NCBI GenBank assembly: GCA_002506275.1
Contig: DAXG01000022.1
Location: 12,347 to 36,113, forward strand
Reading direction: 5' to 3'
Origin: Euryarchaeota archaeon UBA259
GTDB taxonomy: Archaea > Thermoplasmatota > Poseidoniia > Poseidoniales > Poseidoniaceae
DNA length: 23,767 nt
Shown: one piece after another, positions 6,051-9,889 of the stretch
Layout of the letters: each line of letters begins with the position of its first letter
Numbering within the stretch: position 1 is the first letter of the stretch
Program-made: the position numbers and the translations under genes
Notes under the pieces: model-generated
Database searches by the model: none
Told to the model about the DNA's origin: nothing
What the model saw: the letters and a program-made list of their open reading frames with translations, nothing else

Positions 6051-6689
6051 TCAATTCTCCTGTGAAAGCAAACGGTTACGAATCCTTTCGAACAGTTCAC
6101 CTCCGCCCGGAGCGGTCGTTACCACTCCTCGGACAGAACCGAGTTTTTCTGCTCGTAATGAAAGGAACAAGACCGCCACTTGGTGCCATAGCTTGCTTTG
6201 ACCGGCCATAGCCATAATCCATTCATCGTCGGGTATTTCATGGCCTCCTCGCAGCATTTCCTCTCCGATTTCAAGCAAGGCACCGAGGGGTTCACTTTCT
6301 CCGAGCATATGGATGAGGGCAATCCATGGTGAATCGCCTAATTCTTCTTCAGACATATTTGCCAACAGAAGTCCCACCATGACCAAATCCTCCTGACCGT
6401 GTCGTTTCCACAGCGCCGGGATGAGTTTGGCTACGCGACGATGTTGCCCCTCGCCACTTGTAAGGACCCAAGAGGCGATATCTCGTAATTCTGGATTTGG
6501 GCAGCCATAGTGGAAAGCGTAACCACCAGTATTAGCGAGCAAGTCCGTCGAGGGTTTGGCCATCATTCCCGGTACGCCTGCAGCGTACGCCCCTCTCAAA
6601 AATTTGAGTAATTTCCGTTTTGAGCGAAGAAGTTTTGGTTGCGGCTCACCGAGGTACAGCGCTACCTTTTCATTCACTTCGACCACCAT
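6051..6689 (-). CDS. Hypothetical helical protein, possibly HEAT/AlkD-like
   Basis: 212 residues, predicted almost all helical. The central part (about 45-110: NPELRDIASWVL, then AKLIPALWKRHGQEDLVMVGLLLAN) alternates paired amphipathic helices. It loosely recalls the HEAT-like solenoid of AlkD-type DNA glycosylases, where PxLRxxA and LWxxxxxEDxxxA patterns occur; this is a weak resemblance only, and catalytic residues cannot be assigned. The C-terminus has a TTAPGGGELFERIRNRLL segment that may close the solenoid. Its start overlaps the end of the TerB-like gene by 20 bases, which implies translational coupling with that protein. No membrane segment or signal peptide. Confidence 0.75.
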   Translation of the reverse strand: MVVEVNEKVALYLGEPQPKLLRSKRKLLKFLRGAYAAGVPGMMAKPSTDLLANTGGYAFHYGCPNPELRDIASWVLTSGEGQHRRVAKLIPALWKRHGQEDLVMVGLLLANMSEEELGDSPWIALIHMLGESEPLGALLEIGEEMLRGGHEIPDDEWIMAMAGQSKLWHQVAVLFLSLRAEKLGSVRGVVTTAPGGGELFERIRNRLLSQEN

Positions 6690-7161
6690 CAGTGGTCTTT
6701 TTCCTTACCGTATCAAAGATATCGCCAACCAAGCCTACCGAATCGCGGAGTGTGTGGAGCATTTTGTCAACAACGCCGGGGTCCTCGAATTTTTCTTTGA
6801 CGATTTCCCGGAGAGTGGTTTCGATTGTCTCGTGTTCCTCATCATCGATCTCAAAGGCTGAACGTAGATGGGCCAAGACTCGAAACTCGTCTCTTGAAAG
6901 GGATGCGTTGACGATAGCGACTTCGAAGACTTTGGTATAGACTTCTCGTGCTTCTTCAATGGTCACAAGTTCGCCAGGCTCGGACTCTTCGCCGTTTTGA
7001 ATCGCTTTGTAGATTTCAGCAGGCTGATGTTCGGTGAGTCCTAACGCACTTGCTAATTTGATGGTTAGCCTTTTTTCTTCTCGTGTGAGACGTCCGTCTC
7101 CGAGCATCACTTCCACGGTGCTGCGGAACACATCTAAATTCCGAGAATTCGAGGTCGTCAC
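6670..7161 (-). CDS. TerB-like helical protein
   Basis: 163 residues, starting at GTG 7161 (an in-frame stop lies two codons upstream). Two related helical halves carry the TerB pattern: MLGDGRLTREEKRLTIKLASALGL (about 19-42) and VFEVAIVNASLSRDEFRVLAHLRSAFEID (about 78-106). The first has the acidic DG(R/x)LT..E motif that binds metal in TerB/DjlA N-terminal domains; in the second the motif is eroded to NASLSRDE. Such domains act as metal-binding or membrane-stress scaffolds; the exact role here is unknown. It leads the four-gene operon. agaggaggg at 7176-7184 (minus strand) lies 14 bases before the start, a long spacing for an SD. Confidence 0.75.
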   Translation of the reverse strand: MTTSNSRNLDVFRSTVEVMLGDGRLTREEKRLTIKLASALGLTEHQPAEIYKAIQNGEESEPGELVTIEEAREVYTKVFEVAIVNASLSRDEFRVLAHLRSAFEIDDEEHETIETTLREIVKEKFEDPGVVDKMLHTLRDSVGLVGDIFDTVRKKTTDGGRSE

Positions 7162-7203
7162 GCGTCAATGGAGAACCCTCCTCTTCTTGAATCTCTTGTA
7201 TGG

Positions 7204-7220: not shown

Positions 7221-7243
7221 GACGAAATATGTAAGAGCATTGA

Positions 7244-7317
7244 AAAGGAGTCGGCCCGTGGAGCAACCATCCACCTCCCTTTCACGCATTGTGACTTCGT
7301 CGCATATGCAGCAAATA
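7244..7317 (+). promoter_or_regulatory. Structured 5' leader of dnaG: two hairpins before the terminator-like hairpin
   Basis: Hairpin 1: aaaggag (7244-7250) with ctcc(c)ttt (7275-7282) enclosing gtgga (7258-7262) / tccac (7270-7274); it sequesters both the upstream SD and the GTG. Hairpin 2: gcat-t-gtgac (7287-7295) with gtcgc-at-atgc, one bulge and loop ttc. ggccc at 7253-7257, unpaired in hairpin 1, repeats the 3' arm of the next hairpin and can pair with its 5' arm (7322-7328), so two exclusive folds exist. Folds were worked out by eye; no energies were computed. Confidence 0.35.
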
Positions 7318-7362
7318 TGTGATGGGCTTCGGCCCATCTTTTTTGGAACGGGGTGTCGATAG
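7258..7362 (+). CDS. Putative 34-codon upstream ORF / leader peptide of dnaG
   Basis: aaggag at 7245-7250 is followed 7 bases later by GTG (7258), opening a frame of 34 codons that ends at tag (7360-7362), the base before dnaG's own SD (7363). The peptide starts MEQPSTSLSRIV and ends FFGTGCR. It is not recognised and has no run of one amino acid of the kind used by classical attenuators. The frame reads straight through the UUCG hairpin and T6 run at 7321-7344, so a translating ribosome would prevent that hairpin from forming. Evidence is only the SD, the spacing and the neat junction with dnaG; it could be chance. Confidence 0.35.
   Translation: MEQPSTSLSRIVTSSHMQQICDGLRPIFFGTGCR
7321..7344 (+). 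terminator. Perfect 7-bp UUCG hairpin plus T6 (attenuator-like) inside the dnaG leader
   Basis: gatgggc-ttcg-gcccatc (7321-7338) is a perfect 7-bp stem with the very stable UUCG tetraloop, followed at once by six T (7339-7344). This is the textbook layout of a bacterial intrinsic terminator, although archaeal polymerases need mainly the T-run. No plus-strand gene lies upstream for it to end, so it would act within the dnaG leader. The minus strand has no T-run after the stem, so orientation is plus. Confidence 0.55.
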
Positions 7363-7368
7363 AAGGAG
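7363..7368 (+). promoter_or_regulatory. Shine-Dalgarno sequence that fixes the dnaG start
   Basis: aaggag lies 8 bases before the ATG at 7377. It decides against the in-frame GTG at 7353, which has no SD and would place the SD inside the gene. Confidence 0.8.
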
Positions 7369-7376
7369 AAATACAT

Positions 7377-8621
7377 ATGGCTCGAAAACACAACTCAGGA
7401 GGCCGCTCAGGCGGTCAAAAGCAAGGCAAGGCAATGAAATATCAAATCCGCGCCGATATCAAAGTAAACGGAACAGTCCAGCGCAAGGACATTATTGGCG
7501 CCATCATGGGTCAAACAGAAGGCCTTCTTGGCGACGAACTTGAATTGCGTAAACTGCAACGAACTGCACGAATAGGACACGTCGATGTCGAAACAGAATC
7601 CAAAGGTGGAAAAGTCCACGGACTCATCTTGATTCCGAGCAGCCTCGACAATGTTGAAACAGCAATCATTGCTTCAGCACTTGAAACAATTGACCGAATT
7701 GGCCCATGCAACGCTATTATCAAAGTTGTCGAAATACAAGATATTCGAGCAACTAAGAGAACCGCTGTCGTTGACAGAGCAAAGGAACTGTTGCTCAGCC
7801 TCGTGAATTCAGGCGAAGCAGCCTCCAAGACAATTATTGAAGAAGTTCGTTCAGTAATGACGACTGGAACGGCGACCAATTTCCACGGACTAACCTGTGG
7901 GCCAAACATTGAATCTTCATCTTCACTGATTATTGTCGAAGGTCGAAACGATGTTCGCAACCTCCTCAACTGCGGCGTTAAGAACGCCATTAGTGCAGAC
8001 GGTGCAGGCACCATGAAGCAAGAACTGATCGATTTGGCAAACGGTAAGGAAACCGTCATACTCGCCATCGACGGTGACCGTGGTGGCGAGATGTTATTCA
8101 GCCAACTCATGGACACTATGAAAGTTGACTTTGTCGCTCAAGCCCCAGTTGGGCAAGAATGGGAATTACTTCCTCAAAAGACCGTTACAAAGTGCCTCTC
8201 TATGAAAGTGGAAGCCAAGAAATTCGCTCATTCACTCAGCAAGAAACAAGCTGAAGATGATGAGAAAGCGGGTGTACCGGACAAGAACTGGGCCGAAGAC
8301 ATGGGCGAAGTCTACGAAGTAGCTGAAGCCCCTGCTGAAGTTCAAGAAATGTTCGATCACCTCGATGCTCTTGACAAGAACAAAGCCGTTTTCGTTATGG
8401 TTGACGGTACCGTTTCAGAACCGGTCGGCCCATCGACTCTATCGAAGGCTGCTGGCAGTGCAGACGGCGCTGTTGCCATCGTGTTCAACGGGCCAGTGAG
8501 CGAACGCACTCTGGAGATTGCTTCCGAATCAGCTATTGAAACTGTTATCGGTACGAAAGCGGGTAAAGGATACGCTGAGCGTGAAGACGTTAAGTCTTGG
8601 TTGGCAGAAATTCATCGCTGA
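7377..8621 (+). CDS. dnaG: Archaeal DnaG-type primase (TOPRIM)
   Basis: 414 residues. The conserved core begins at MKYQIRADIKVNG (20-32) and runs through AIMGQTEGLLGDELELRKLQ, as in archaeal DnaG. The TOPRIM fold follows: LIIVEGRNDVRNLLNCGVKNAIS with catalytic E188, and VILAIDGDRGGEML with D232 and D234. A charged linker and a C-terminal ~90-residue domain (KAVFVMVDG to the end) complete it. The archaeal protein has been linked both to primase activity and to the exosome, where it binds Csl4/Rrp41-Rrp42 and favours poly(A) RNA. A 19-residue Gly/Ser/Lys/Gln N-terminal extension precedes the usual start and may contact nucleic acid. The gene follows a long structured leader and is 41 bases ahead of the proline-rich membrane protein. 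Confidence 0.95.
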   Translation: MARKHNSGGRSGGQKQGKAMKYQIRADIKVNGTVQRKDIIGAIMGQTEGLLGDELELRKLQRTARIGHVDVETESKGGKVHGLILIPSSLDNVETAIIASALETIDRIGPCNAIIKVVEIQDIRATKRTAVVDRAKELLLSLVNSGEAASKTIIEEVRSVMTTGTATNFHGLTCGPNIESSSSLIIVEGRNDVRNLLNCGVKNAISADGAGTMKQELIDLANGKETVILAIDGDRGGEMLFSQLMDTMKVDFVAQAPVGQEWELLPQKTVTKCLSMKVEAKKFAHSLSKKQAEDDEKAGVPDKNWAEDMGEVYEVAEAPAEVQEMFDHLDALDKNKAVFVMVDGTVSEPVGPSTLSKAAGSADGAVAIVFNGPVSERTLEIASESAIETVIGTKAGKGYAEREDVKSWLAEIHR

Positions 8622-8662: not shown

Positions 8663-9889
8663 ATGGGCGAGGACGCGGCAACCGAGTGGCCTGATGATGC
8701 AGACCCGTTTGATGCCAAGACATCGAACGAGGAAGCGACCGAACAATCGAGTGCTGCAGTTGAGGAGCCCCTTGCTTCGATTGAGCCTGAAGACTCCGAC
8801 GATGAATTAACACCTGTTCCCTTGGAAGGAGCGCCTTCGCCAGAAGGCGTGCAATGGACACTCCCCGTTCGCGCTGCACCCTTACTCGAACAGTTTCATA
8901 ACGAGTCAGTCACCGAATACCCACTCCTGCAAACTTCAGATGGAATGAAATCTACCTCATTGGTTCTCGATGAGGATCTTCTGCGGATTATCGAAACGCG
9001 TTTAGATGCCGATGGACAACGTCGAATGAACGTTTCACTTTCAATGAAGAGAGAGTTGACAGGTTTCAAACACCATCATAATGAATTGATGCACAAGCAC
9101 CAGTACCTGTGGTTGGGATCGGCTTTCCTTGGAGCCGTGCTCTTACTGTCAAACATCCTCGTTTTCACTCTATTGGGCCTTGTTTTTGTCAGTGCCGGCT
9201 TATGGAATTGGACGAAGATGCACCTTGAGACACATCGGTTGGAATTCGCCAATTCCGGCGGTGTTCTCACCCATACACTTCGTGGCTACGGTACAGACCG
9301 CCCCTTTTTCCGGGCAAGCATGGCTTACCTTGGTTCAGAGATGGCGGGTCTTTTGAGAACAGGGATTCTTGAAACTTCAGCGGTTGAGGAACTCCATGCA
9401 AGCCTTGCAGCCCCCCCTCCACCGCCTCCTGCGCCAGTCGCCTTGCCCGCACCCCATCCTGCAGCACCTTTGGCAATCCCCGAACCAGCAGCACAGCAGC
9501 AACTCGGTCAGCCGCTGGCCCCGTCACCTCTTGTAGCCACAGTTCCCGAGCCTTTACCCGTGCCCGCAACTCCACAAATAATTCCGGGCCCACCTATAGC
9601 GCCACCCCTTCCAAGCGCCCCTATACCGCCGCCGCAGAACATTCCACCGCCGCCAATCGCAGGCCCTCCAGTGGCTGCAACACTCCCAACTGCGCCCCTC
9701 CCGCCGCCAGCGCCGCTTCCTCAGATAGCAGGGGGTATGCCAATGCCACCGCCACTCGGCATACCTGGCGCGCCAATTCCACTCGATGCACCTATGCCTA
9801 ACGCTCCAGAAGTAGCCGTAACGGCATCTCCAGTTGAGGGCACACTGAGTGAAGAAGAACAAAACAGTCTTCTCAATGAACTCTCTTGA
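8663..9889 (+). CDS. Membrane protein with acidic N-terminus and long proline-rich C-terminus
   Basis: 408 residues, not recognised. Residues 1-60 are acidic and disordered. 95-145 form a soluble helical part with a His-rich stretch (FKHHHNELMHKHQ). 149-182 are hydrophobic (YLWLGSAFLGAVLL then NILVFTLLGLVFVSAGLW), one tight hairpin of two membrane helices. 185-245 form a second soluble part. About 250-395 are almost all Pro, Ala, Leu and Ile in PPPPPP and APxPxP runs. A short acidic end (LSEEEQNSLLNELS) follows and looks like a docking helix. The two-helix hairpin places both soluble parts and the proline tail on one face, probably cytoplasmic. It ends exactly where the convergent 969-residue gene ends. 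Similar proline-rich tails in archaeal membrane proteins have no defined role. Confidence 0.75.
   Translation: MGEDAATEWPDDADPFDAKTSNEEATEQSSAAVEEPLASIEPEDSDDELTPVPLEGAPSPEGVQWTLPVRAAPLLEQFHNESVTEYPLLQTSDGMKSTSLVLDEDLLRIIETRLDADGQRRMNVSLSMKRELTGFKHHHNELMHKHQYLWLGSAFLGAVLLLSNILVFTLLGLVFVSAGLWNWTKMHLETHRLEFANSGGVLTHTLRGYGTDRPFFRASMAYLGSEMAGLLRTGILETSAVEELHASLAAPPPPPPAPVALPAPHPAAPLAIPEPAAQQQLGQPLAPSPLVATVPEPLPVPATPQIIPGPPIAPPLPSAPIPPPQNIPPPPIAGPPVAATLPTAPLPPPAPLPQIAGGMPMPPPLGIPGAPIPLDAPMPNAPEVAVTASPVEGTLSEEEQNSLLNELS

Follow-up and report, generated by a model that had tools for sequence, protein, structure and literature searches.

The dnaG gene in the window, as we call the whole stretch of 23,767 nucleotides that was analysed, is preceded by a conserved structured leader RNA (7266–7362, +), and this folded leader of about 100 bases probably sets the amount of DnaG, judging from comparisons with related genomes. 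It was delimited by searches with three RNA models (R1 to R3), by covariation and by its folding energy, and it ends with a closing stem, P1, set against the Shine-Dalgarno (SD) sequence of dnaG. The explanation that we favour, with some reserve, is that this cis-acting leader would control dnaG translation by the opening and closing of P1 beside the SD. The original prediction of a regulatory RNA hairpin ahead of an archaeal dnaG was borne out to the extent that the region appears structured and probably regulatory, but not in the mode of action proposed, namely translation-linked attenuation through a short upstream open reading frame (uORF).

The dnaG Locus and Its Promoter

Archaeal DnaG, a primase-like protein and, in other archaea, a subunit of the exosome, is encoded at 7377–8621 (+) with an ATG at 7377 as start codon. 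The product carries a Toprim domain and matched the NCBIfam model NF003108, “DNA primase DnaG”, over its cut-off (E 5e-109), and its closest relatives among the 80 oriented loci retrieved included Candidatus Poseidoniaceae records. The SD of the gene, AAGGAG (7363–7368, +), abuts P1, and in 38 of 50 leaders an SD motif began 0–1 nt beyond the final column of P1. The upstream neighbour, a frame at 6670–7161 with a weak TerB similarity below the Pfam cut-off, lies on the minus strand, and therefore the dnaG promoter was expected between position 7162 and the dnaG start. The next gene after dnaG (8663–9889) gave no Pfam match.

DnaG was found in 57 of the 62 genomes of the genus and in 157 of the 170 genomes of the family, as well as in 57/60, 54/60, and 56/60 of the genomes sampled from the order, the class and the phylum, respectively. 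A set of 110 loci was reduced to 85 distinct leaders, and further leaders were read in sets of 62 loci (some from the same genomes), 14, and 20. One leader in the collection, L111, comes from a contig (CALDQY010000250.1) whose title names an uncultured Rhodobiaceae bacterium; its dnaG is nevertheless Poseidoniaceae-like, with 75% identity to the query, and its upstream region resembles that of its archaeal relatives, so that the contig is probably misbinned.

The sequence ATTGAAAAGG at 7239–7248 (+) was read as a TATA-like core promoter box owing to the presence of similar boxes ahead of tRNA genes. Across 800 kb of G001, a genome of the same genus, an A+T peak was observed about 30–36 nt before the mature 5′ ends of 15 tRNA genes, with boxes such as GTTTGAAAGG, AATTGAAGAG, and GTTGAAATAT, and the box of the window's own tRNA-Cys was GTTGAAATAG. 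In the 85 distinct leaders, a box resembling (A/G)TT(C/G)AAAAGG or TTCAATAA came first, then some 20 bases of variable sequence, and after these a conserved stretch up to the SD. The spacing between box and RNA was fixed, since the first T of the box and the first position of the RNA model were 26–27 nt apart in 49 of 50 aligned leaders and 23 nt apart in one. This fixed distance places the predicted transcript start at about 7266–7270, and transcription of dnaG most likely begins there, directed by the box at 7239–7248. As a separate observation, some of the tRNA promoter boxes of G001 read TTGAAAGG or TTGAAGAGG and could be mistaken for SD sequences.

Secondary Structure and Covariation

The consensus structure is a multi-branch junction that carries the hairpins P2 and P3 and is closed by P1. 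In the window, the 5′ strand of P1 (7267–7279, +) pairs with its 3′ strand (7350–7362, +) with two 1x1 mismatches, P2 occupies positions 7286–7309 (+), and P3 (7321–7338, +) corresponds to the UUCG hairpin of the original prediction.

The broadest alignment, A6 (50 sequences), was fitted to R2 and covered several genera; like the other model-fitted alignments (A2, A3, and A4), it is biased towards the structure of its model, and in it 87.2% of the cells were paired, compared with 35.0–44.5% when the partners were slid. In A6, 23 of the 27 pairs were changed on both sides versus 17.2 in shuffles, none of 500 shuffles being as high, and 245 cells were changed on both sides versus 80.5 in shuffles. 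Such changes affected 8 of the 9 pairs of P2, all 7 pairs of P3 and, in A6, 8 of the 11 pairs of P1, whose outermost two pairs were unpaired in 26 and 23 of the 50 rows and two of whose inner pairs were unpaired in 20 and 14. Alignment A3 (40 sequences, fitted to R1) had 89.2% of its cells paired, compared with 28.5–44.8% after sliding, and both sides had changed in 18 of its 27 pairs versus 15.4 in shuffles, 18 being reached by 21 of 500. Among 20 close relatives aligned with MAFFT (A1), for which the structure was drawn from RNAalifold and by hand, 95.3% of the cells were paired versus 26.6–44.8% after sliding, and four pairs were changed on both sides, with 13 of 500 shuffles reaching four. 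Taken as comparative evidence, these alignments indicate that the leader structure is under selection, with a secondary structure backed by covariation.

A1 comprised 20 of the 21 leaders of its subclade, the divergent L021 being left out. Antisense matches were present in A2 (two) and A4 (four), and A3 and A6 were built without them, A3 from 42 sources less L039 and L077, and A6 from 56 sources less L009, L043, L062, L072, L100, and L104, with the E-value limit lowered to 0.08, and also without L039, L042, L075, and L077.

Folding energy was uninformative for the interval 7238–7377 (z –1.33) and became informative only once the sequence was trimmed to the conserved ends: in seven examples of our choosing, the trimmed RNA had z values of –2.35 (the window, 7266–7368), –4.40, –4.16, –3.74, –4.01, –2.77, and –2.69. 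At minimum energy, the leader of the window has both P2 and P3 but shifts its closing stem to a partly different register, while the minimum-energy fold of leader L041 reproduces the consensus P1 exactly. There is wide sequence variation in P2, P3, and their loops, and a UUCAC- or CUCGC-like stretch recurs before P2, as judged by eye.

The Short Upstream Frame

According to the original prediction, an SD-led uORF spans a UUCG hairpin followed by a T run and regulates dnaG by attenuation. The letters are indeed in place: AAGGAG at 7245–7250 is followed by seven bases, a GTG at 7258, and a frame of 34 codons (7258–7362, +) that closes with TAG at 7360–7362, directly before the AAGGAG at 7363–7368; the hairpin GATGGGC-TTCG-GCCCATC at 7321–7338 is followed by T6, and GGCCC is found at 7253–7257. 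By themselves, these features are weak and unremarkable. In 1 kb, two terminator-like sites were counted versus 1.2 (sd 1.2) in shuffles, and GGGCTTCGGCCC with a T run close behind it occurred once in the host genome (1.17 Mb, 57% complete). The hairpin at 7321–7338 is nevertheless in excess of chance, with its support coming from the comparison of related leaders.

That comparison separated the parts of the prediction, as the hairpin and its covarying pairs were kept among relatives, but the GTG, the upstream “SD”, the frame and T6 were not conserved across the genus. Most of this “SD” lies within the TATA-like box, which in other subclades reads TTCAATAATG or TTCAATAAGT, with AAGGAG gone. 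Of the 21 leaders that make up the nearest subclade, 10 have a GTG at this site, and 4 of 53 same-genus leaders have the frame of 34 codons (L001, which is the window itself, L003, L004, and L018), so that a conserved translated uORF, as expected of a leader-peptide attenuator, was rejected. The “stop codon” of the frame is supplied by the GATAG of the 3′ strand of P1, which is invariant in the 20 sequences of A1. Likewise, neither the UUCG loop of P3 nor the T6 behind it was conserved. A run of at least five T followed P3 in 8 of 50 leaders, and at least five T were present among the eight bases past P3 in 11 of 50, which speaks against an intrinsic terminator between the frame and dnaG.

Moreover, the predicted transcript start at 7266–7270 would leave both the GTG at 7258 and the GGCCC at 7253–7257 outside the transcript. 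The two mutually exclusive folds that had been proposed need GGCCC, which lies in a stretch that varies among the leaders of the genus and, preceding the predicted start, is probably not transcribed. The window happens to resemble bacterial leader-peptide attenuators in having an SD-like AAGGAG, a GTG, a short frame open across the hairpin, and T6; it differs from them in that frame, start and T run are not conserved and in that the frame would begin ahead of the predicted RNA start. It is thus highly improbable that dnaG is attenuated through the 34-codon uORF and a terminator formed by the UUCG hairpin and T6, and the frame, judged to have arisen by chance, is probably a coincidence with no role in dnaG control. 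The corrected reading carries a more general caution, as promoter boxes in these marine archaea can resemble SD sequences.

Restriction of the Leader RNA to dnaG

Searches with the RNA models returned dnaG leaders and little else. With R1, only the window being in the seed, 97 sources were searched, and 24 of the 25 matches up to E 10 were dnaG leaders in the right orientation, 16 of them at E ≤0.005 and 8 at E 0.04–0.96; 73 of the 97 sources had no match at the leader. When R2 was applied to 96 sources outside its seed, all 21 matches, three genomes fetched twice being included among them, were at dnaG (E 0.0014–1.2, nine of them at E <0.01) and extended to genera g4, g6, and g9, with no match at the leader in 75 of the 96 sources. 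R3 gave 14 matches in 99 further sources, 13 of which were at dnaG (E 4e-7 to 0.85; six at E <1e-4 and seven at E 0.012–0.85, one corresponding to a genome fetched twice), and 86 of the 99 had no match at the leader. The control sequence, 380 kb of G001 that excluded the leader, produced a single R3 match, at E 3.4.

A genome-wide scan with R2 (E ≤0.05, strict filters) matched 41 of 165 family genomes, once each and always directly upstream of dnaG, and no second copy away from dnaG was found in the 165 genomes at this threshold. The 41 genomes all belong to the genus of the window, and most of them were in the R2 seed, so the scan mainly shows the absence of copies elsewhere; the other 124 genomes gave no match, a sign of how narrow the range of the model is when strict filters are applied. 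In the host genome, as far as it is complete, R1 and R2 each gave a single match and no second copy.

A comparison of the window with Rfam 15 yielded only the tRNA at threshold, and for the leader alone the best match had E 0.18 and 19.1 bits, against a cut-off of 80. In the literature searched, no report of such a leader before dnaG was found. A structured leader is a known kind of element, and the dnaG leader RNA itself appears to be undescribed.

Proposed Mechanism and Alternative Explanations

Gating of the SD by P1 is the most economical reading of these data, and the switch itself is what we infer from them. The RNA would fill the interval from the predicted transcript start to the SD, with the junction of P2 and P3 closed by a stem that ends against the SD. 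A closed P1 and junction, or a factor bound to them, would keep the 30S subunit off the SD, and their opening would allow dnaG to be translated. The trigger might be a small ligand or else a protein, for instance DnaG itself or the exosome acting in a feedback loop. Such feedback is the hypothesis to take up first, given that in the genomes searched the element turned up at dnaG alone.

A second structural state, in which a CCUCC-like 5′ strand would sequester the SD, is tempting by eye, but in 114 leaders, 5′ strand–SD pairing showed no excess over 5′ strands with single bases shuffled (group mean z from –0.26 to +1.11 in ten groups) and lent no support to such a state. In the subclade of L062, L064, L070, L071, L078, and L079, the SD region ATGAGGAAT has its complement in a 5′ strand that reads ATTCC(A)TTCAT, which is suggestive of SD pairing, though there was no excess over shuffles in this subclade either (z below –1 in 0/7).

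In a specific form of P1 gating, with the gene product as trigger, DnaG, alone or within the exosome, would bind the leader and lower its own synthesis, which can be proposed only tentatively. It would agree with the occurrence of model matches only at dnaG in the 165 family genomes, with the RNA-binding N-terminal domain described for Sulfolobus DnaG (PMC4227792), and with the clustering of Sulfolobus exosome crosslinks at RNA 5′ ends (PMC7667871), but DnaG is reported to prefer A-rich RNA and the leader is not A-rich. A riboswitch sensing a small molecule or an ion would account for the compact multi-branch fold adjoining the SD and for the recurring UUCAC- or CUCGC-like stretch before P2; the wide variation of P2, P3, and their loops and the non-metabolic nature of the adjoining gene make this rather doubtful.

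There are two further possibilities. The structure might do no more than shield the message from decay at its 5′ end, without regulation, as P1 begins at, or a few bases from, the predicted 5′ end; a simple hairpin would suffice for this purpose, however, and several helices with compensating changes would rather suggest recognition, which makes protection alone an unlikely account. A free-standing small RNA gene that ends by chance at the SD of dnaG would fit a promoter box of its own at constant spacing and the compact, closed folding of the RNA, but is hard to reconcile with the T run behind P3 not being conserved, with the position of the SD motif next to P1 in most leaders, and with no match apart from dnaG in the 165 genomes (E ≤0.05, strict filters), and we regard it as quite improbable.

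Control of dnaG by P1 would have parallels in several known systems. Translational riboswitches are a general kind of element in which the aptamer abuts the SD, and they resemble the dnaG leader in that the closing stem adjoins the SD, the latter being without an Rfam match at threshold. In bacteria, RNase E and PNPase lower their own synthesis through their leaders. The bacterial rne and pnp 5′ leaders are, like the dnaG leader, structured and placed before a gene for RNA-decay machinery, which makes autogenous control a natural hypothesis; the dnaG leader differs in being archaeal, and the likeness is one of kind, with no kinship in sequence or structure claimed. A motif named rne-II is listed in PMC2864571. 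Covarying leader RNAs of archaeal ribosomal protein genes (eL15, S15, and L4) have been predicted by comparative means (PMC7247131); they share with the dnaG leader a covarying RNA before an archaeal gene and differ in the gene. Neither the word dnaG nor the word primase occurs in the main text of PMC2864571 or PMC7247131.

The conserved dnaG leader would provide a well-defined entry point for studying how an exosome subunit is kept at its proper amount in archaea, and, being short and having defined ends, it is directly testable. The role of DnaG, in RNA metabolism, in priming, or in both, was still an open question in PMC4227792.

Leaders of Other Families

Beyond the leaders considered so far, some upstream regions bear a resemblance to the leader RNA. 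In family f2, ACTC followed by a GC-rich hairpin was common to the 15 aligned leaders, an alignment made without six of the 21 f2 leaders (L153, L154, L155, L159, L172, and L173). RNAalifold recovered P2 and three more pairs in these 15 leaders, with one pair changed on both sides, and folds of single f2 leaders presented a stem closing just before the SD, most clearly in L155. An AATTCAC-like stretch occupies a comparable place in many f3 leaders. It is plausible that f2 and f3 leaders are akin to the f1 leader RNA, a resemblance judged by eye only, and R3 gave no match at the f2 and f3 loci supplied to it.

A wider proposal would be that of a Poseidoniia-wide RNA family through which the exosome, via DnaG, sets its own amount, with f2 and f3 as diverged members; this seems to us somewhat unlikely. 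If true, archaea would possess, with a separate origin, an equivalent of the leaders through which RNase E and PNPase regulate themselves in bacteria.

Among 20 dnaG upstream regions from other families of the phylum, a few look structured by eye. L209, L214, L217, L223, and L226 have TCAC- or TCAT-rich stretches and hairpins upstream of dnaG, such as GTGCATCAT...ATGATGCAC in L217, and they may be distant relatives of the leader RNA.

Two minor observations concern other parts of the window. A second terminator-like hairpin with a T run was noted at 6681–6697 (+), within the 3′ end of the minus-strand gene at 6670–7161. In addition, positions 541–2139 encode a chaperonin-like protein, of the thermosome family by eye and possibly a diverged paralogue, which carries GDGVT at the position of what is presumably the usual motif of that family, GDGTT.
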